From contig NZ_JASJOC010000005.1 in assembly GCF_030068615.1 (NCBI RefSeq), positions 1 to 64,000 of the forward strand: a stretch of DNA of 64,000 nucleotides. Direction: 5' to 3'. Below, in pieces: positions 2,111 to 17,921 of the stretch; positions within the stretch are counted from its first letter, which is position 1, and every line of letters starts with the position of its first letter. The position numbers and the translations under genes are program-made. Below the pieces are notes generated by a model. It had not been told where the DNA came from. It saw only the letters and a list, made by a program, of their open reading frames with translations, and ran no database searches. The DNA is from Halostagnicola sp. A-GB9-2 (GTDB taxonomy: Archaea; Halobacteriota; Halobacteria; Halobacteriales; Natrialbaceae).

Positions 2111-3481
2111 ATGACGCTCTCCGATTTCTTTGACCCTGACGGAATCGCTGTCATTGGCGCATCGAAGACGCCCGGAAAACTCGGCAACGACGCGATGACG
2201 AATATCGAATCGTACGACGGAACGGTGTACCCGGTCAATCCGTCGAGTTCCGGTACCGTCTACGGCTACGAGTTCGTGGACTCGGTTCACGACACGGACG
2301 CAGATCTGGCGTTGTGTTGCGTTCCGGGTCCCGTTTTGCCGGAAATTATCGAGGAGTGCGGTGAGGCCGGCATCGAGGCGGCGGTTATCTTCGCGGGCGG
2401 GTTTGCAGAGGTCGATGAGGAGGGCGAACAGTTGGAGGCGACGATCACCGAAACGGCAGACGAGTACGATATTACGCTTCTCGGACCGAACACGGCGGGG
2501 TACATCTTGCCTCACCTCGATCTCTACGGTTCGTTCGTTCCACGAATCAACGAAGTAGAGACCGGTAACGTCGGTATCCTCGCACAGAGCGGTGGCGTCG
2601 GCGTGACGGCTTCCTTCCAACTCGAGCGTGAAGGCTATGGTGTCTCTGCGATGTTCGGCCTCGGCAATCGTGCGAACACCGGTTTCGCGGAACTCATCCC
2701 GGCCCTCGATGAGGATCCGAACACGGACGCGATCGCGCTTCACATCGAAGGGACCGAAGATATCGACGGTTTCCTCGAGGCGTGCAAAGCGGCGGAGACG
2801 CCCATCGTCGCGCTCAAGGTCGGCAACGCGGCTGTCGGCGAGTTCGTGCAATCCCATACCGCCGCCCCGACTCAAGATACCGCTCGTTACGAGGACGAAC
2901 TCGTCGGCCACGGCGTGACGATGGTCTCTTCGCTGACGGAACTTATTGACGCGAGTCGCGCACTGGCCGATACACCCGTTCCTGACGGACAAAACGTCGG
3001 CGTCGTGACGGCCCAGGCGGGGCCCGGTATTATCGTCGCCGATGCACTCAAGGGGGCCGGAATCAACTTTCCGGACCTCTCGGAGGAAACGCAGGAAACC
3101 GTCGATGATCTGCTACAGGGTATCACCTACACCGAAAACCCCGTCGACACCGGTCGCCCGATGCCCGAATTCGGTGCCGTCGTCGAGGCCGTCGCTCGAG
3201 ACGAGAACGTCGATATCGTCCTCGTGTACGAGATTTACGAGGATTCACTCGGCTATCCCGTCGACGAACTCGAGCGACTCACCGACGAAGTGGATAAACC
3301 AGTGCTCTTTACGATCGCTGGTCCGAACGAGGCCCTCGCGGACGAACGCGAAGCGATGGAGGAGATCGGCGTTCCGACGTTTCAGTCGCCCGGACGCGGT
3401 GCAAATGCTGTCAGGGCGATCGTCGGCTCGAGTTTGAACGGATCCGAACCTGAAAAGCGTGCAGTAGAAACCCCGATCTGA
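2111..3481 (+). CDS. ADP-forming acyl-CoA synthetase, alpha subunit (orphan)
   Basis: A 456-aa protein with the CoA-binding Rossmann domain (IAVIGAS at 12-18), followed by the succinyl-CoA ligase-like domains (LLGPNTAG near 123-130, AQSGG at 158-162). The phosphorylated His expected in this family is present at residue 249 in QSHTAA. These enzymes convert acyl-CoA, ADP and phosphate to acid, CoA and ATP, and need a beta (ATP-grasp) subunit or domain. No beta partner is adjacent; the only one in the window is at 11570-12280 beside a second alpha subunit of similar length. It could share that beta subunit or act on a different acyl group. The start is supported by the TATA box 25 bases upstream. 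Confidence 0.85.
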   Translation: MTLSDFFDPDGIAVIGASKTPGKLGNDAMTNIESYDGTVYPVNPSSSGTVYGYEFVDSVHDTDADLALCCVPGPVLPEIIEECGEAGIEAAVIFAGGFAEVDEEGEQLEATITETADEYDITLLGPNTAGYILPHLDLYGSFVPRINEVETGNVGILAQSGGVGVTASFQLEREGYGVSAMFGLGNRANTGFAELIPALDEDPNTDAIALHIEGTEDIDGFLEACKAAETPIVALKVGNAAVGEFVQSHTAAPTQDTARYEDELVGHGVTMVSSLTELIDASRALADTPVPDGQNVGVVTAQAGPGIIVADALKGAGINFPDLSEETQETVDDLLQGITYTENPVDTGRPMPEFGAVVEAVARDENVDIVLVYEIYEDSLGYPVDELERLTDEVDKPVLFTIAGPNEALADEREAMEEIGVPTFQSPGRGANAVRAIVGSSLNGSEPEKRAVETPI

Positions 3482-8769: not shown

Positions 8770-9645
8770 ATGCATTTCGTCCGATACGACGGCGACCGAC
8801 TCGGAGTACTCACCGATGACCAGACCGGAATCGTCGACCTGACCGATCGCCTCGGCCTCGAGAGCGACGACCCACTAATCGAATACATTCAGGGCGACTA
8901 CGACGCAACTCAGTATGCCGACGAAGACGCCGACCACGACGTCGAGGACGTTCACGTCGAATCCCCCGTCGAGCATCCGAAGAAAGTCATCGCCGCTCCA
9001 CTGAACTACGAAAACCACATCGAAGAAGCAATCAGCGACAAGGATATCACCACTGACGAGTGGTTCTCGATCGAAGACAAAGGATACTTCCTGAAAGCGC
9101 CTTCGAGCATCGCCGGACCGGACGACGGCATCGAACTGCCGTTCTCGGATCGCCGTGTCGACCACGAAATCGAGCTGGCGTTCATCATGGGTTCGGACGT
9201 CAAGGATGTCGACGCGGACGAAGCGTGGGACAACATCTTCGGCTACACGATCCTGCTTGACATCTCCGTCCGCGGGGATCAGGACCGTTCGAACCGGAAG
9301 TCCTACGACACGTTCACCATCATCGGGCCGTGCGTCGCGACGCCGGACGAAGTCGACGACCCCCAGGATCTGGACATGGAACTCCAGCTCAACGGCGAAA
9401 CGCAACAGGACGACAACACCAACGACATGGTTTATACCTGTGCTGACGTCGTCGAATACGCGTCTCTCGGCGCGACGATTTCGGCCGGTGACGTCATCAC
9501 GACCGGGACGCCGGAAGGCGTGAGCGAACTCAACGACGGCGATACGATCGACGCCGAAATCGAGGATGTCGGCTCGATGACCGTCGACGTTACCGAACGC
9601 GATGCCCGATTCGCTGACGTCAACGTCGAGAAGGGCGGACAGTAG
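8770..9645 (+). CDS. Fumarylacetoacetate hydrolase (FAH) family protein
   Basis: A 291-aa FAH-family enzyme, using the ATG at 8770; an in-frame start at 8656 adds a Cys/Arg-rich stretch unlike the acidic protein. The C-terminal catalytic domain shows VDHEIELAFIMG with the metal-ligand Glu residues, the Asp-containing segment FGYTILLDISVRG, and the closing TTGTPEGV motif. FAH-family members cleave C-C bonds of fumarylpyruvate, maleylpyruvate or fumarylacetoacetate, or act as decarboxylases/isomerases. With gentisate 1,2-dioxygenase 670 bases downstream, fumarylpyruvate or maleylpyruvate hydrolysis is the best guess. The enzyme is cytoplasmic. Confidence 0.88.
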   Translation: MHFVRYDGDRLGVLTDDQTGIVDLTDRLGLESDDPLIEYIQGDYDATQYADEDADHDVEDVHVESPVEHPKKVIAAPLNYENHIEEAISDKDITTDEWFSIEDKGYFLKAPSSIAGPDDGIELPFSDRRVDHEIELAFIMGSDVKDVDADEAWDNIFGYTILLDISVRGDQDRSNRKSYDTFTIIGPCVATPDEVDDPQDLDMELQLNGETQQDDNTNDMVYTCADVVEYASLGATISAGDVITTGTPEGVSELNDGDTIDAEIEDVGSMTVDVTERDARFADVNVEKGGQ

Positions 9646-10314: not shown

Positions 10315-11391
10315 ATGGCACAGCAAGAGTCAGAAGACCCGATAGAGTTGAGTTCCGAGACTCGGAGCATCTTAGAGGAGCAGAACCTCAGACCGCTCTG
10401 GGAGGTTGAAGAGACCTTCGGTGATGTCTATGACGACCTCCAGGCCGAAATCTGGAAGTGGGACGACATTAAAAATGCTATCGACCACGTCGAAGAGGAT
10501 ATGCCGATCGAGGAACTCCCACCGGGATTCCAGCGTCGAGTTGCAGTACCGATCAACGCTTCGCTCGGGAATTCAATCACGAATACGATCTACGTCGGCG
10601 TCCAGACCGTTTCGCCGGGTGAAACCGCGCCGTCGCACCGCCACGGTGCGAACGCGTTGCGGTTTACCATCGACGGCCACGAGGACATGAAGACCGTCGT
10701 TGCCGGCGAAGAGTTCCCGATGGAGAACAACGACCTCATCACGACGCCACAGTGGGAGTGGCACGACCACGTCAACGACTCCGACGAGACGGCCATGTGG
10801 CTGGACGTACTCGACCTGCCGCTCGTTCTGGATTCGCTGAACGCCACAAACGTCTTCGAAAATCACGAACTCGAGCGCCAACCCGTCACCAAAACGGAAG
10901 GGTACTGGGACTCGCAGTACGGTCGAGCGCGTTCGTACGACCAATCGAAAGACGGCTCCATCCCCGGACCGTTCGAAGGAATCCGGGATCCGACACCGCC
11001 GTATCGGTTCCGATGGGAGGATACGGTTCAGACGCTTCGACAGCGCGCGGATAACGATCAGCCGGACCCGTACGACGGCTACAGTATGTCCTACGTTAAT
11101 CCGACGTCGGGGGCACCGCCGTTGTTCCCGACGATGTCGTTTCGGGCGCAGTTACTCAACGAGCCGACGGACGCTCACTTCCACAACGCGACTGAGGTCT
11201 ACTTCGTCATCGAAGGCGAGGGCGTCACCCACGTCGAGGACGAAGCCCTCGAGTGGGGCAAGTGGGATATTTTCTGTGTCCCACCCGGCAAAGCCCACCA
11301 TCACGAGCCGGACGACGAAGCGATCCTCCTCGGGATGACGGACCGACCGGTGTTCGAGGCGTTTAATTTCTACACCGAAGCAGAGGCCTGA
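10315..11391 (+). CDS. Gentisate 1,2-dioxygenase
   Basis: A 358-aa bicupin of the gentisate dioxygenase family, close to the family's usual 340-380 aa. The N-terminal cupin has the iron-binding signature SHRHGANALRF near residues 103-113, with a third His in WEWHDH near residue 145. The C-terminal cupin has AHFHNATEVYFVIEGEG and a PGKAHHHEPDD stretch. The enzyme opens the gentisate ring with O2 and Fe(II) to give maleylpyruvate. Its context (FAH-family hydrolase, IclR regulator, aryl/acyl-CoA ligase) supports aromatic acid degradation. No maleylpyruvate isomerase is seen nearby, so direct hydrolysis of maleylpyruvate or an isomerase elsewhere is implied. Confidence 0.9.
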   Translation: MAQQESEDPIELSSETRSILEEQNLRPLWEVEETFGDVYDDLQAEIWKWDDIKNAIDHVEEDMPIEELPPGFQRRVAVPINASLGNSITNTIYVGVQTVSPGETAPSHRHGANALRFTIDGHEDMKTVVAGEEFPMENNDLITTPQWEWHDHVNDSDETAMWLDVLDLPLVLDSLNATNVFENHELERQPVTKTEGYWDSQYGRARSYDQSKDGSIPGPFEGIRDPTPPYRFRWEDTVQTLRQRADNDQPDPYDGYSMSYVNPTSGAPPLFPTMSFRAQLLNEPTDAHFHNATEVYFVIEGEGVTHVEDEALEWGKWDIFCVPPGKAHHHEPDDEAILLGMTDRPVFEAFNFYTEAEA

Positions 11392-11569: not shown

Positions 11570-12280
11570 TCAGTCGCTCTCGTCGTCGGGAGCTAACGCG
11601 ATCAGCGCATCGAGTGCAAGCACATCCTCGGACCGCGCCAAGAGCGGATTGATCTCGACCTCCGACACTTCGGACTCCTCGACCAGGAACTCACTGACCG
11701 TCTGTATCGCGGCGGCGATCGCTTCCCGGTCGACGGCCGGTTCGCCACGATATCCGTCGAGAAGTTCCGACGCCTCGAGTTCGTGGGTCATCTCGAGGGC
11801 TTGTTCTTCGGTTACCGGTGCGAGCCGGTGGCTCGTATCTTGGAGGACTTCGACTGCGACGCCGCCGAGACCGACAAGCACGGTCGGACCGAACGACGGA
11901 TCTCGCGTTCCGCCGACGATGACTTCGATGCCGGCGTCGACCTCGAGTGCGGATTCGACGCGTACCGCCGCGTCTATCCCCTGACGGTCGGCCGTTTCGA
12001 AGATTTCACGGGCGGCGTCGGCGACCGCATCGTCGTCCGCCACGCCGAGGACGACACCCGCGCCGTCGCCCCAGTCGCTTTTGTGCTGAACGCTTGGCGA
12101 TTCGATCTTTACGACGACCGGATAGCCCAATCGCCGCGCTGCGTCGGTCGCTGCTTCCGGCGAACGAACGGTTTCACCGTCGGGGACATCGATGCCGTGT
12201 GTCGCAAGTACTTCTTTGGCTTCGGATTCGGTTAGCGTGGTTCGTCCCGTTGACGTCGCCGTTTCGATGTGATCAGTCAT
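11570..12280 (-). CDS. ADP-forming acyl-CoA synthetase, beta subunit
   Basis: A 236-aa ATP-grasp protein typical of the beta subunit: LTESEAKEVLATHGI at the N-terminus, the nucleotide-binding strand YPVVVKIES near residue 53, HKSDWGDG near 68, GGTRDPSFGP near 128 and EINPLLA near the C-terminus. Its start overlaps the end of the upstream alpha gene by 8 bases, which means translational coupling and a shared transcript. With the alpha subunit it would make ATP and a free acid from an acyl-CoA. Some haloarchaeal enzymes have alpha and beta fused in one chain, so the split arrangement here is of note. Confidence 0.9.
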   Translation of the reverse strand: MTDHIETATSTGRTTLTESEAKEVLATHGIDVPDGETVRSPEAATDAARRLGYPVVVKIESPSVQHKSDWGDGAGVVLGVADDDAVADAAREIFETADRQGIDAAVRVESALEVDAGIEVIVGGTRDPSFGPTVLVGLGGVAVEVLQDTSHRLAPVTEEQALEMTHELEASELLDGYRGEPAVDREAIAAAIQTVSEFLVEESEVSEVEINPLLARSEDVLALDALIALAPDDESD

Positions 12281-13655
12281 CCGTGTTCACCTCGCTTTCG
12301 ACGGCGTCAGCAAGTGGATTCCGCTTCGCGTAGTTGACGAGCGCCCCGACAGCGTCGGCTCCTCGTTCGGGAGTCGTGTACGTCGGAATGTCACACTCGG
12401 TCATCTTCTCGAGTTCGGGCTCGAGCGCCGCTCGTGCACCGCCCGTTGCGAAGACAATCGGTTTTCCGGTTGCCTCCGGGAGGCCCTCGAGTGTCTCCGT
12501 CGGGAATCCGAGTCCCTCCTCGAACAGTTCGTAGACGAGGACGATATCGACGTTCTCGTCGCGAGCGACGGCTTCGACGACGTCCCCGAATTCGGGCATC
12601 GGACGACCCGTGTCGACGGGGTTGGCCGAGAAGGTGATTCCCGGCAGGATCTCCTCGACGACGGCCTGTGTCTCGTCGCTCAGCGAGGGGAGGGTCGCTC
12701 CGTCGGCTTTCAGCCGGTCCGTGATCGCGATCCCCGGACCGGCTTGTGCGGTCACGACGCCGACGTTCGGTCCCGACGGGCGCGGACAGTCCGCCAGCGC
12801 CGTTCCGGCGTCGTACAGTTCGGCGACCGAACGTACCGTCGGGACGCCGTACTGTGCGAAGCCCGCTTCGTACAACTCGTGGTCTCCGGTGAGCGATCCG
12901 GTGTGTGATTCGGCGAAGTCGCCGACGTCTTGTTCGCCGACGTTGTACGCGACGACGGGTGTCGATGCCGACTGACACGTTTCGAGGAGACCTCGAGCAT
13001 CGTTGGTCCCTTCGACGTGCAGGACGATGGAGTCGGTTTGATCATCGGTGTCGAAGAAGTCGATAGCTTCCTGAAAACCGACGTTTGCACTGTTGCCGAG
13101 TCCGACCATTGCGGACACACCACGCCCTTCGTTTTCCGCTCTGAACGCGGTCGCAAACGCAATTCCGCCGCTCTGGGCGATAATTGCGACGTTTCCGGAG
13201 CGGATATCTTCAGTCCCGGTTGCGAAGGTGGCGTGTAGATCCTCTGCAGGACGCAAGAACCCGCTCGTGTTCGGTCCAAGCAGATGGACATTTCCGTCGT
13301 CTGCGGCCTCGACGAGTCGTCGCTGTAACTGTTCGCCCTCTTCGCCAGCTTCGGCGAAGCCGCCCGAAAAAATAACGGCGGCTCCGATACCCGCCCGACC
13401 GCAGTCTTCGATTACGTCCGGAACGACCGGCCCGGGGACACAGGAAAGCGCGAGGTCGACGGGACCGTCTATCTCCGTTACCGAGGAGACGAACTCTCGA
13501 CCGAACACGGTTCCTGATCCGGATGGGTTGACCGGATAGATCGGCGCATCGTACGCAATCGCGTTTTGCATCGCTTCGTACCCGATCTTTCCTTCCGTTG
13601 CCGAGGCACCGACTACGGCAACGCCATCGGGGTCAAATAAGCTATCTAAGGCCAT
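12273..13655 (-). CDS. ADP-forming acyl-CoA synthetase, alpha subunit
   Basis: A 460-aa alpha subunit with the CoA-binding domain (VAVVGASATEGK near residue 13), LLGPNTSG near 124, AQSGG near 158, and the phospho-His motif ESHTGSLTGD near 250. It is first in a two-gene operon with the beta subunit. Overall it is clearly related to the orphan alpha subunit at 2111-3481, though that copy reads SHTAAPTQD at the His loop. The pair probably recovers ATP from CoA esters made by the catabolic genes around it; the acyl group cannot be read from sequence. Confidence 0.9.
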   Translation of the reverse strand: MALDSLFDPDGVAVVGASATEGKIGYEAMQNAIAYDAPIYPVNPSGSGTVFGREFVSSVTEIDGPVDLALSCVPGPVVPDVIEDCGRAGIGAAVIFSGGFAEAGEEGEQLQRRLVEAADDGNVHLLGPNTSGFLRPAEDLHATFATGTEDIRSGNVAIIAQSGGIAFATAFRAENEGRGVSAMVGLGNSANVGFQEAIDFFDTDDQTDSIVLHVEGTNDARGLLETCQSASTPVVAYNVGEQDVGDFAESHTGSLTGDHELYEAGFAQYGVPTVRSVAELYDAGTALADCPRPSGPNVGVVTAQAGPGIAITDRLKADGATLPSLSDETQAVVEEILPGITFSANPVDTGRPMPEFGDVVEAVARDENVDIVLVYELFEEGLGFPTETLEGLPEATGKPIVFATGGARAALEPELEKMTECDIPTYTTPERGADAVGALVNYAKRNPLADAVESEVNTDD

Positions 13656-13834: not shown

Positions 13835-14269
13835 TTAGGTCCAGTCGTCCGGATCCACTGCATCCATCGGTTCTGTTCGGTGTTCCTCGTGCAGGTCGAA
13901 GTCCCCGTCCGGGTAGTAATCCGGGGCCTCGAGTTCGAACCCGCTCCAGATGAGCGAGAACTGGTCGAGTTCGCCCCAGTCGGTGTACTGGATCGGTTCG
14001 GCGAAGATGGTATCGACCTCGATTTCTGCATCGGGGAAGGTATCTTGTATCGCGTCGTTCGAAGCGACACCCCACGCGTAGTCGGCGGTAATCGCACCGA
14101 GCGTGTCGAATCCGCGATCTTCGACGAGTCCTTCCTGGCCCCTGATGAACGCCGGTGACGGCGGCAGTCCCGTCCTGAAAGTGTAGTTCGAATCGTGACT
14201 GACAATCTTGATGTCTCCCGCCGCGTGTAGAAACAGCGGAATCTCGTGGTCCTCCCCACCGCTGGACAT
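13835..14269 (-). pseudogene. Fragment of a LivK-type ABC substrate-binding protein
   Basis: A 144-aa frame that resembles the middle and C-terminal part of a periplasmic-binding-fold type 1 protein (branched-chain amino acid, amide or aromatic acid receptors): GAITADYAWGVASNDAIQ and FPDAEIEVDTIFAEPIQYTD. Family members are about 400 aa and start with a signal and lipobox; neither is present. No matching upstream part was found in other frames. It is probably the remnant of a lost uptake system for the aromatic or carboxylic acid handled by the neighbouring genes. A short intact protein cannot be ruled out. Confidence 0.55.
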
Positions 14270-14546
14270 GACCGTTTTCCTTCTCGAGTGTGGTTGTGGT
14301 AGACAATCACGGGCCCTCGTCTCGTGTGTCCCCCGTTTTCATGTGAACTTCTAACCATGCTCTATCGTATAGCTTGCCAGCAGACTATTATAAATTCTGG
14401 TTGGTATTGTCAAGCGCATCGCTCTCAGACCTCGAACGGCTGCGAGTTCGCCGACGGATTCGTGTCTCATAGACGACTCTTACCGAACCGTCGGTTCCGA
14501 GAATACGTGAACAAGTTTCAATAGAACCGACGAGTAACGTCTCTCA

Positions 14547-15314
14547 ATGAGTGGTCCGGAATCGAAAAGCCAATCGGTCAAATCCGACGAAACCCTGTTC
14601 GCCATCGTCGAATGCGTTCAGGACTCAGAGCGCGCGGGCGTCACGGAGATTGCCCAGACGCTTGAGCTTGCGAAAAGTACCGTCCACAAACACCTCGCCA
14701 CCCTCGAACAACACGGGTATGTCGTCAACGAAGGGGGGACCTACCGGCCCGGATTGCAGTTTTTCGGCGATGGAATAGACGTTCGAAACCAGTACGATGT
14801 CTTCCACGCCGCCAAAGACAGGGTAGACATGCTCGCCGCCGAAACGGACGAAGCGGTGTGGTTGGTCGTCCACGAAAACGGTCGAGTCATGTTTCTGTAC
14901 GGCTCCGTGAAAAATAACACCTTTAACAGTCATTCCGTGGTGGGACAATGGAAACACTTACATTCGACTTCGGGCGGGAAAGCGATTCTCGCGCACTTAC
15001 CGGAGCAAACAGTGCACGAACTGACCGCTCGAGACGACCTCCCGAGCCATACCGAGAACACGATCACGGACCGAGCGGAACTTGAGGAGCAACTCGAGGA
15101 AGTTCGTGCCACCGGCGTCGCGTGGAACCGGAAAGAGGACTTCACGGGCGTGCACGCGATTGCGGCACCGATTATTCTCGATGGCGAACCGATCGCTGCG
15201 ATCACGATTGCGGGTGCCGCGAGTCGACTCACCGAGGAGTACTGTGAGACACAGCTCCGGGATCCACTGCTGGAAGCGGTCAACGACGTCGAACTCCGTC
15301 TGGCGTACGACTGA
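14547..15314 (+). CDS. IclR-family transcriptional regulator
   Basis: A 255-aa regulator of normal family length. Residues about 15-75 form the winged helix (TLFAIVECVQ, GVTEIAQTLELAKSTVHKHL), and the rest is the IclR effector domain (TSGGKAILAHLPE near 145, GVAWNRKEDFTGVHAIAAP near 188). Such proteins often control operons for aromatic or carboxylic acid use and bind a pathway intermediate. The divergent binding-protein remnant and the downstream CoA ligase are likely former or present targets. A run of three 28-bp repeats lies between this gene and the ligase. Confidence 0.9.
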   Translation: MSGPESKSQSVKSDETLFAIVECVQDSERAGVTEIAQTLELAKSTVHKHLATLEQHGYVVNEGGTYRPGLQFFGDGIDVRNQYDVFHAAKDRVDMLAAETDEAVWLVVHENGRVMFLYGSVKNNTFNSHSVVGQWKHLHSTSGGKAILAHLPEQTVHELTARDDLPSHTENTITDRAELEEQLEEVRATGVAWNRKEDFTGVHAIAAPIILDGEPIAAITIAGAASRLTEEYCETQLRDPLLEAVNDVELRLAYD

Positions 15315-15478: not shown

Positions 15479-15616
15479 ACCCACGCCGGTCAGCAGTCGT
15501 CGCCACCCGCGATCAAACGCCGCCAGCAGTCCCAATTCGGGTACTCTCGTATCCGTGGCGTCAGACGAAAATTATTAATGTAGATGGGAAGTGGTATGAC
15601 GTACCTTGGAGAAACG

Positions 15617-17167
15617 ATGAACTTTATTGAGTCTTTTAACAGGTCAGTACGGTGTAATTCGGAAGAAACAGCGATTATTACTGACGACGGATGGAGCGAA
15701 ACATACGGGGAACTCGATAACAGGTCGTCTCGGTTGGCGAACGCGTTGACGGAGCGATGCGGGGGGGACCGTATCGCGACGCTGGCGTGCAACGGCGTGT
15801 TAGCTATCGAATCGATAGTAGCGAGTCACAAGCGCGGTATCGGAAACGTCCAACTGCCGTTTCGGGAGAGCCCGGGGAGCATCGTCTCGATGCTGGAGCC
15901 GACTGAAGCGACGGCGTTGCTCTTCGACGACAACAACGTCGAGAAAGCACTGGAAGTTATCGACCGGTCGGCTATCCAGACGGGTATTCACCGCGGTGAC
16001 GCGTCCGTGGATCACGACGCCGTCGAATCGTACGACGCGATTCTCGAGGAGGCCTCGAGCCAAGCGCTCGAGACGGACTCTTCTTACGAGCACGGGATCT
16101 TCTACACCAGCGGAACGACGAGCACGCCGAAGGCCGTTTTACACGACCAGGAGTCGATGTGGCTCGGAAGCACCCAGGTAATCATGGAGATGGGTATCGA
16201 ACAGACCGATATCGCACTCGTCACGTCCCCGTGGTATCACATGGTGACGTGTGACGCGTGGATCCTTCCGCACATCCAGGTCGGTGCGACGATGGTAATC
16301 CAGACCCATTTCGATCCGCACGAAGCGCTCGAACTCATCGACGAGTACGATATTACTGGACTACTCGCGGTCCCGACGCAACTCCACGCGCTTCTCGACG
16401 CCCAGCGGGAGGAAAACTATGCGATCGCCGATCTTTCGTACATTCGAACCGGGGGATCGATCGTTACAGAGGCGCTCGTCAAGGACGTTTCCGATCACCT
16501 CACCGATAACCTCTACAATACGTACGGATTGACGGAGGGTGGTCCGAACCTCACATACGCGCATCCATCGCTCCAGTCAGAACATCCCGGGACGATCGGC
16601 AACGAATCGTTCATGTGGGAGATCCGAGTCGTGGAACCCGCGGGAGCATCCGATGCCGTCGACCCCGACGCGACGGTCGGTGCGGGCGAAACCGGAGAAG
16701 TGATCGCCCGCGGTGATGGAATGACGGACGGCTACCTCGACCGTCCGGAGGAAACCGAGCAACTTTTCGCCGGGGAGTGGCTTCGAACCGGCGACATCGC
16801 CGAGATCGATTCCGACGGGACCCTCCATATAATCGGTCGTGCGGACAACATGATCGTTAGCGGGGGCGAAAACATCTATCCCGAGGAAGTAGAGGAAATC
16901 CTCGAGGGGTACGATGCCATCGACGAGGCGGTCGTAATCGGGTTGGAGGACGATCACTGGGGAGAACGAGTCGTCTGTGTCGCCTGTCTCGAGGACGAGG
17001 CGAAGGCCGCTGAAACCGAACTCGACGAGTTCTGTCAGGATCACGATCGGCTGGCGAATTTCAAGCGACCGCGAGAGTACATCCTCACGGAGGAACAACT
17101 TCCCCGGACTGATACCGGAACGATCGAACGAGAGACGGTATCGCGCGAATTCTTCGATACCGAATAA
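15617..17167 (+). CDS. AMP-forming acyl/aryl-CoA ligase with altered catalytic Lys
   Basis: A 516-aa member of the class I adenylate-forming superfamily. The ATP-binding P-loop YTSGTTSTPKAV, the YGLTEGG motif, and the hinge RTGDIAEIDSDG followed by GRADNMIVSGGENIYPEE are all intact. The last conserved motif, normally PRTxTGK, reads PRTDTGT: the codon at 17120-17122 is ACG (Thr) where AAG (Lys) is expected. That lysine contacts the carboxylate in the adenylation step, so activity should be weak or absent. The start at 15617 was chosen for the GGAG sequence 8 bases upstream; ATGs at 15596 and 15584 are alternatives. Substrate is unknown; an aromatic acid is plausible from the neighbours. Confidence 0.85.
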   Translation: MNFIESFNRSVRCNSEETAIITDDGWSETYGELDNRSSRLANALTERCGGDRIATLACNGVLAIESIVASHKRGIGNVQLPFRESPGSIVSMLEPTEATALLFDDNNVEKALEVIDRSAIQTGIHRGDASVDHDAVESYDAILEEASSQALETDSSYEHGIFYTSGTTSTPKAVLHDQESMWLGSTQVIMEMGIEQTDIALVTSPWYHMVTCDAWILPHIQVGATMVIQTHFDPHEALELIDEYDITGLLAVPTQLHALLDAQREENYAIADLSYIRTGGSIVTEALVKDVSDHLTDNLYNTYGLTEGGPNLTYAHPSLQSEHPGTIGNESFMWEIRVVEPAGASDAVDPDATVGAGETGEVIARGDGMTDGYLDRPEETEQLFAGEWLRTGDIAEIDSDGTLHIIGRADNMIVSGGENIYPEEVEEILEGYDAIDEAVVIGLEDDHWGERVVCVACLEDEAKAAETELDEFCQDHDRLANFKRPREYILTEEQLPRTDTGTIERETVSREFFDTE

Positions 17168-17294: not shown

Positions 17295-17921
17295 ATGGTC
17301 ACCGAGTTCGTTTCGGGAGTGTACGATATCACGGTACGGGACGATGGCAACGGACGCTACCGAGCACACTTCTTCGATTTGCCTGTGCCGACCCTCGTCG
17401 ACACGGGCCTTGAAAGCACTACTGACGCGCTCTTCGAAGGAATCGAGGAAATCGGTACCGAACCCGAACGCGTGATCATCACCCACGGAGATGGAGACCA
17501 TATCGGCGGTCTTGAGTCGGTAAACGAACGGTACGATGTCGAAACGTGGGTTCCAGCGCAGACGAACGTCGACGACTCGCTCGTCGACCGGCGTTTTTCA
17601 ACCGGCGATACCATCGGGCCGTTCGAGGCCGTACACGTTCCCGGTCACACTCCCGATCACCACGCACTGGTCGACGAAGCGAACGGTATCGCCGTTCTCG
17701 GTGATGCAGTGTTCGGCTCGGACGCTCGAGGCCTGCCGTCGGGATACTTCGTTTTGCCCACCGGATTTTACTCGGCAAACCTGCTCGAAGCCGACGAACA
17801 CCTCGAGCGACTCCTCGAGTTCGAGTTCGATGTCGGCCTCGTTTATCACGGTTCGTCTGTGAAAACCGATGCGGTGGCTACACTCGATGACTTCGTTAAT
17901 TTCGACGGCAAGCCCCAGTAA
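17295..17921 (+). CDS. MBL-fold metallo-hydrolase (small)
   Basis: A 208-aa single-domain metallo-beta-lactamase protein. The metal loop reads THGDGDHIGGL (residues about 58-68), so the second His of HxHxDH is Asp, a variant I know from other MBL families. Further motifs are PGHTPDHH near 119 and GDAVFG near 138, with a late His in YHGSSVK near 191. The start lies about 20-25 bases after an AT-rich run (TAATTTTAATAAAA), in line with a leaderless transcript. It might be a thioesterase or lactonase serving the nearby CoA pathway; that is inference. Confidence 0.85.
   Translation: MVTEFVSGVYDITVRDDGNGRYRAHFFDLPVPTLVDTGLESTTDALFEGIEEIGTEPERVIITHGDGDHIGGLESVNERYDVETWVPAQTNVDDSLVDRRFSTGDTIGPFEAVHVPGHTPDHHALVDEANGIAVLGDAVFGSDARGLPSGYFVLPTGFYSANLLEADEHLERLLEFEFDVGLVYHGSSVKTDAVATLDDFVNFDGKPQ

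Follow-up and report, generated by a model that had tools for sequence, protein, structure and literature searches.

In two families of haloarchaeal CoA ligases, the catalytic lysine of the A10 motif was replaced by threonine and the replacement was conserved, which was a wider result than the change in one acyl-CoA ligase gene that had been noticed in the original prediction. One family contained the ligase gene of the window (the whole stretch of 64,000 nucleotides from Halostagnicola sp. A-GB9-2 that was analysed), and the other was the haloarchaeal MenE. The A10 lysine is a textbook catalytic residue and acetylation switch, and has been described as invariant in acyl-CoA synthetases, NRPS adenylation domains and luciferases. 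The best reading was that both families adenylate their substrates without this lysine. As for the window gene, its product is probably a functional AMP-forming aryl-CoA ligase that belongs to a gentisate-type pathway of haloarchaea; the threonine of A10 was probably kept by selection, and adenylation would proceed with the charge of the lysine supplied otherwise. A conserved Thr in two families, one of them an apparently dedicated menaquinone ligase, would mean either that a lysine-free solution for adenylation exists or that the present account of the catalysis is incomplete. Active-site filters which call members without the A10 lysine inactive would then fail throughout an entire archaeal class.

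The protein encoded by the window gene matched the AMP-binding (PF00501, 172 bits) and AMP-binding_C (PF13193, 48.8 bits) domains, both above the curated cut-offs, and its AlphaFold model displayed a complete two-domain fold with a mean pLDDT of 91 and a TM of up to 0.89 to ANL structures. By domains and fold the protein belongs to the ANL superfamily, but the invariant A10 lysine required of its members was absent, hence it is a variant. The ATG at 15617 agreed with the RefSeq start of the Halostagnicola larsenii orthologue, so the start chosen in the original prediction was reasonable. The A10 stretch of the protein was LPRTDTGTIER, in which Thr513 was aligned by HMMER to K492, the A10 lysine of 4-chlorobenzoate:CoA ligase (CBL), and a lysine occupied this column in 41/41 Lys-type reference enzymes of the joint alignment. 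The codon, the HMMER alignment and the reference column thus upheld the claim that ACG (Thr) stands in place of the A10 lysine codon. The coordinates of the gene, its neighbours and the residues discussed are listed below.

Features of the window and of the men operon (residues in the numbering of the 527-aa protein)
Feature	Position	Strand	Remark
AMP-forming ligase gene	15584..17167	+	527 aa; 516 aa from ATG 15617
A3/P-loop FYTSGTTSTPKAV	16100..16138	+	Ser180 and Ala184 at two usual glycine sites
Arg508 (PRT)	17105..17107	+	five residues before Thr513; invariant in both Thr families
Asp510	17111..17113	+	Asp/Glu in all window-family Thr members; Ser/Asn/Glu in Lys members
Thr513, replacing the A10 catalytic lysine	17120..17122	+	codon ACG
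Arg516	17129..17131	+	invariant in the window family, nearly so in haloarchaeal MenE
FAA-hydrolase family protein	8770..9645	+	probable fumarylpyruvate/maleylpyruvate hydrolase step
Gentisate 1,2-dioxygenase homologue (bicupin)	10315..11391	+	below the NCBIfam curated cut-off
ADP-forming acyl-CoA synthetase, beta (ATP-grasp) subunit homologue	11570..12280	-	
ADP-forming acyl-CoA synthetase, alpha subunit homologue	12273..13655	-	
IclR-family regulator	14547..15314	+	usually adjoins the ligase in relatives
MBL-fold metallo-hydrolase	17295..17921	+	in relatives, frequently the gene immediately downstream of the ligase
men operon	L049:1679-9527 (G000:C35, ~67.3-75.1 kb)		MenE with Thr at A10

All other adenylation motifs had been described as intact, and this held for A4, A5, A7 and A8 but not for A3. 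The A3/P-loop read YTSGTTSTPKAV, where Ser takes the place of the final Gly in TSGTTG and Ala that of the Gly in PKG. These replacements were family-wide (Ser in 39/44 and Ala in 38/44 Thr members; TSGTTS-PKA in most), and the Gly after PK was relaxed in both Thr families while it was kept in 40/41 Lys-type references. Of the five superfamily-invariant positions, the four besides the A10 Lys were read as present; three of these were mapped by column, and they, the Glu of A5 (Glu318), the Asp of A7 (Asp404) and the Arg of A8 (Arg419), were invariant in the window family. The A4 His and the A8 Glu-Asn of aryl-CoA ligases were kept as well (His219 in 44/44, Glu429 in 44/44 and Asn430 in 43/44 Thr members). 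Position 403, the Gly of the A7 TGD, was one more superfamily position that had been relaxed: it was Arg in 18/44 Thr members and differed from both Gly and Arg in some others, whereas the window gene had Gly.

The alignment of homologues that had been proposed as a check was run, and Thr was found at A10 in 46 of the 52 haloarchaeal orthologues, which came from several families, and Lys in the other six. Within the window's own family, Thr was present in all 18 other orthologues found (52-78% identical), and the same-genus orthologues from two genomes, one of which matches Halostagnicola larsenii XH-48, were 77-78% identical to the window protein. Among the 46 orthologues, the Thr codons were ACG (27), ACC (17) and ACA (2), and the use of three codons indicated that the residue, not the codon, was under conservation. 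With such a distribution and varied codons, neither an error in base calling nor a mutation private to this genome could explain the Thr, and raw reads were not needed to exclude them. In the comparisons with the two orthologues of the same genus, the dN/dS was 0.14 and 0.15; it ranged over 0.08-0.33 for the remaining usable pairs, the pairs L067/L070 and L070/L073 being dropped as frame artefacts (in-frame stop in the upstream extension of one row). The window gene family is under purifying selection. Only one base lies between ACG and AAG, and a decayed transporter-gene fragment is found nearby, both of which would suit a decaying gene or a sequencing error; however, the same Thr occurred with three codons in dozens of independent assemblies and the reading frame was intact under the low dN/dS given above, which leaves this explanation a negligible chance. 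The idea that the gene is starting to decay was also refuted by the order-wide Thr and the kept gene neighbourhood, and neither relaxed selection, nor a broken frame, nor a private loss of an essential residue, which mark a pseudogene, was found in the window gene. In one orthologue (L045 / L027, G020:C2:255473-257014), a TGA was reported inside the matched stretch.

In the tree, the six Lys orthologues fell into three groups nested in Thr lineages; two of the three nestings had starred support, while that of the L053 group was less firm. At least four changes at A10 were needed when Lys outgroups were included, which may be read as one early Lys to Thr change followed by three returns to Lys. 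The replacement would then have occurred before the divergence of the sampled haloarchaeal orthologues and have been held by selection thereafter. A gentisate-dioxygenase homologue was located near 6/6 Lys orthologues and likewise near most Thr members. Since Lys and Thr members occurred in the same kind of cluster, the two residues seem interchangeable for the selected function, and these natural Lys and Thr orthologues make the question directly testable.

From its gene context, the window gene probably encodes an aromatic-acid:CoA ligase that takes part in gentisate catabolism. In most orthologues, the ligase was accompanied by an IclR regulator, the alpha and beta subunits of the ADP-forming acyl-CoA synthetase and a gentisate 1,2-dioxygenase homologue, and many clusters also contained an MBL-fold hydrolase, an FAA hydrolase, an ABC transporter, a hotdog thioesterase or an FAD monooxygenase accompanied by a small protein. 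A few deep members of the family (L066, L071, L080, L081b and L082) stood outside a gentisate-type cluster. A tie of Thr to the presence of the ADP-forming synthetase was considered and rejected, Thr being found both with and without the synthetase nearby. The degradation of benzoate and 4-hydroxybenzoate by haloarchaea has been reported to involve a gentisate 1,2-dioxygenase and, in the case of 4-hydroxybenzoate, an NIH shift (PMC4005966 and a title cited in it). The window cluster fits this gentisate pathway, for which Haloarcula sp. D1 and Haloferax sp. D1227 are cited there, through its dioxygenase homologue and FAA hydrolase, and many clusters of the relatives fit it further through the FAD monooxygenase and the hotdog thioesterase. 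Unlike in these relatives, the monooxygenase homologue of the window genome (81% identical) was located ~71 kb away on the same contig. A route to gentisate by a CoA ligase, a CoA-ester hydroxylase and a thioesterase would fit the cluster, with an aromatic acid as the putative substrate; in the literature examined, the ligase step of the haloarchaeal gentisate pathway was found neither assigned to a gene nor tested.

Among the canonical ANL enzymes of the window genome whose A10 could be read, a survey revealed only two without the Lys, the window gene and MenE. MenE (L049:7953-9527) was the last gene of menF-menD-menB-menA-menC-menE, whose products were named by homology, and this linkage to menF, menD, menB, menA and menC identifies it as MenE; the menA-menC-menE linkage was present in four further lineages. 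The window gene itself is not a menE, as its product scored 230 bits with the menE profile against an NCBIfam cut-off of 330 and it was located in a gentisate-type cluster instead of the men linkage. The search with the MenE of the window genome gave matches in 137/146 genomes of the order and in 121/122 of the good ones, and Thr was found at A10 in 66/66 distinct haloarchaeal MenE examined (70 rows minus four duplicates), with all four Thr codons in use. Lys was found at A10 in the bacterial MenE of Thermomicrobium, Anoxybacillus and a Pseudomonas plasmid. The haloarchaeal MenE was ~30% identical to the window protein and grouped with bacterial Lys-type MenE. In a tree of 75 rows, built with the A10 column left in, the window family and haloarchaeal MenE stood apart with full SH-aLRT support, each with Lys relatives; when the A10 residue was masked and fewer sequences were included, a single clade for both Thr families was not rejected by an AU test (p 0.17). 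Thr at A10 thus probably arose independently in the two families, two origins being favoured but not proven. Menaquinone is the respiratory carrier of haloarchaea, and in Haloferax volcanii the gene assigned as menE is HVO_1375 (PMC8305020). The best argument for a working Thr-type enzyme is MenE, because Thr was universal in the sampled haloarchaeal MenE, the gene was linked to the men operon and the organisms use menaquinone.

When 374 class I adenylate-forming enzymes were aligned, five residues proved invariant, among them the A10 Lys, and replacement of this Lys led to a 500-fold loss in kcat/Km in CBL (K492A) and a loss of 96% of the activity in FadD13 (K487A) (PMC6122825). No natural family lacking the A10 lysine was found described in the open-access literature. 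The losses in these mutants count against an active window ligase, and the enzyme may have no adenylation left; it would then perform the second half-reaction (adenylate to thioester, its reverse or hydrolysis) or bind or sense CoA esters, and the acid would be activated by the ADP-forming acyl-CoA synthetase. The changed P-loop could reflect such a wider loss of adenylation, and the synthetase present in the cluster of most members could be the alternative activator. However, some Thr members had no ADP-forming synthetase nearby and some Lys members had one, the cluster was of the same kind for both, no such partner accompanied the Thr-type MenE in the men operon, and the ATP-binding residues of A5, A7 and A8 were retained, so that this loss is regarded as rather unlikely. 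The use of pre-formed adenylates, another earlier suggestion, was also unlikely, as no other adenylate-forming enzyme was seen travelling with the gene and MenE was the sole ligase of the men operon. The distribution of Thr among the orthologues, the dN/dS values, the kept cluster, the nested Lys orthologues, the confident fold and the uniform Thr of MenE all favour an active ligase.

If the ligase is active, the Thr enzyme would most likely still carry out both steps, forming first the acyl-adenylate and afterwards the CoA thioester. A flanking arginine would most likely supply the positive charge that the lysine provides elsewhere, namely Arg508 and/or Arg516, possibly assisted by the altered P-loop or by K+ of the KCl-rich cytoplasm, and the hydroxyl of Thr513 may provide an extra contact. 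Arg was found in the Arg508 column in 44/44 Thr enzymes of the window family and 65/65 haloarchaeal MenE versus 10/41 Lys-type references, and in the Arg516 column in 44/44 and 62/65 versus 15/41. Arg508 also occurred in enzymes that keep the lysine, both the bacterial MenE and the Lys orthologues; it is therefore not specific to Thr enzymes and may be a permissive condition only. This lack of specificity, together with the few deep members outside the gentisate cluster, counts against the proposal. A more novel but less likely possibility is a K+-dependent adenylation, in which Thr513 and oxygens close to it (Asp510 in the window family) would bind a K+ ion of the multimolar KCl cytoplasm in place of the lysine ammonium; it would have evolved repeatedly, both in the gentisate-cluster ligase and in MenE. 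Across the alignment of Thr and Lys-type enzymes, no conserved substitute lysine specific to Thr enzymes was detected; K83, K183 and K494 were conserved in the family and rejected as replacements, as they were common to Lys-type enzymes too. Two candidate partners of Thr513 were also dismissed: Asp510 was lost in 3/3 switches to Lys, but n=3 cannot reach significance and haloarchaeal MenE has mostly Ala, and the loss of Gly180 was inconsistent across the three switches.

The A10 lysine is an acetylation switch in many CoA ligases (PMC8388817), including B. subtilis MenE, whose active-site A10 lysine K471 is acetylated and touches the ATP alpha-phosphate (PMC11619455). A ligase without this lysine might therefore evade inactivation by acetylation, with the cost in rate tolerated, and a GNAT acetyltransferase gene was found in the cluster of one relative. 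Against such a regulatory adaptation, the lysine was kept by other ligases of the same genome, and escape from acetylation would account for the loss of Lys but not for continued catalysis; its chance is slim, and it would be an addition to an active lysine-free ligase, not a replacement of it.

Among solved structures, CBL (PDB 1t5d, 3cw9) was the best sequence match of the window protein, at only ~27% identity. The window model superposed on the thioester-forming CBL structure 3cw9 with a TM of 0.86-0.88 and an rmsd of 2.8, and CBL His207 (A4), Glu410 and Asn411 (A8) were kept. Different from CBL were the Thr in place of Lys492 and the Ser and Ala in place of two P-loop glycines. The window protein is thus a putative CBL-like aryl-CoA ligase, for which the gene context supports the formation of an aromatic-acid thioester. 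Haloarchaeal MenE shared with the window protein the A10 Lys to Thr replacement and the arginines at both flanking positions, but differed in its men operon and, as a rule, in having no Asp510. B. subtilis MenE (PDB 5bur, 5gtd, 5x8f) agrees with haloarchaeal MenE in superfamily, fold and gene role, but retains its A10 lysine (PMC11619455). Both folds were predicted with high confidence; the predicted arrangement was thioester-forming for the window protein and adenylation for MenE, a difference that is not evidence of mechanism.

Further genes were observed in and around the clusters. A remnant of an ABC-transporter substrate-binding protein gene, ~144 codons in two pieces, was located at 13841-14275 (-), and its counterpart, a 407-aa protein, was intact beside the cluster in relatives. 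A second alpha homologue of the ADP-forming acyl-CoA synthetase was found at 2111-3481 (+), 56% identical to that at 12273-13655, and no beta subunit homologue was found beside it. The small conserved protein of L041:792-1154 (-) and its homologues, ~105-120 aa in annotated relatives, had no Pfam or NCBIfam match; it almost always adjoined the FAD monooxygenase of the gentisate clusters and is possibly a partner subunit of this enzyme.
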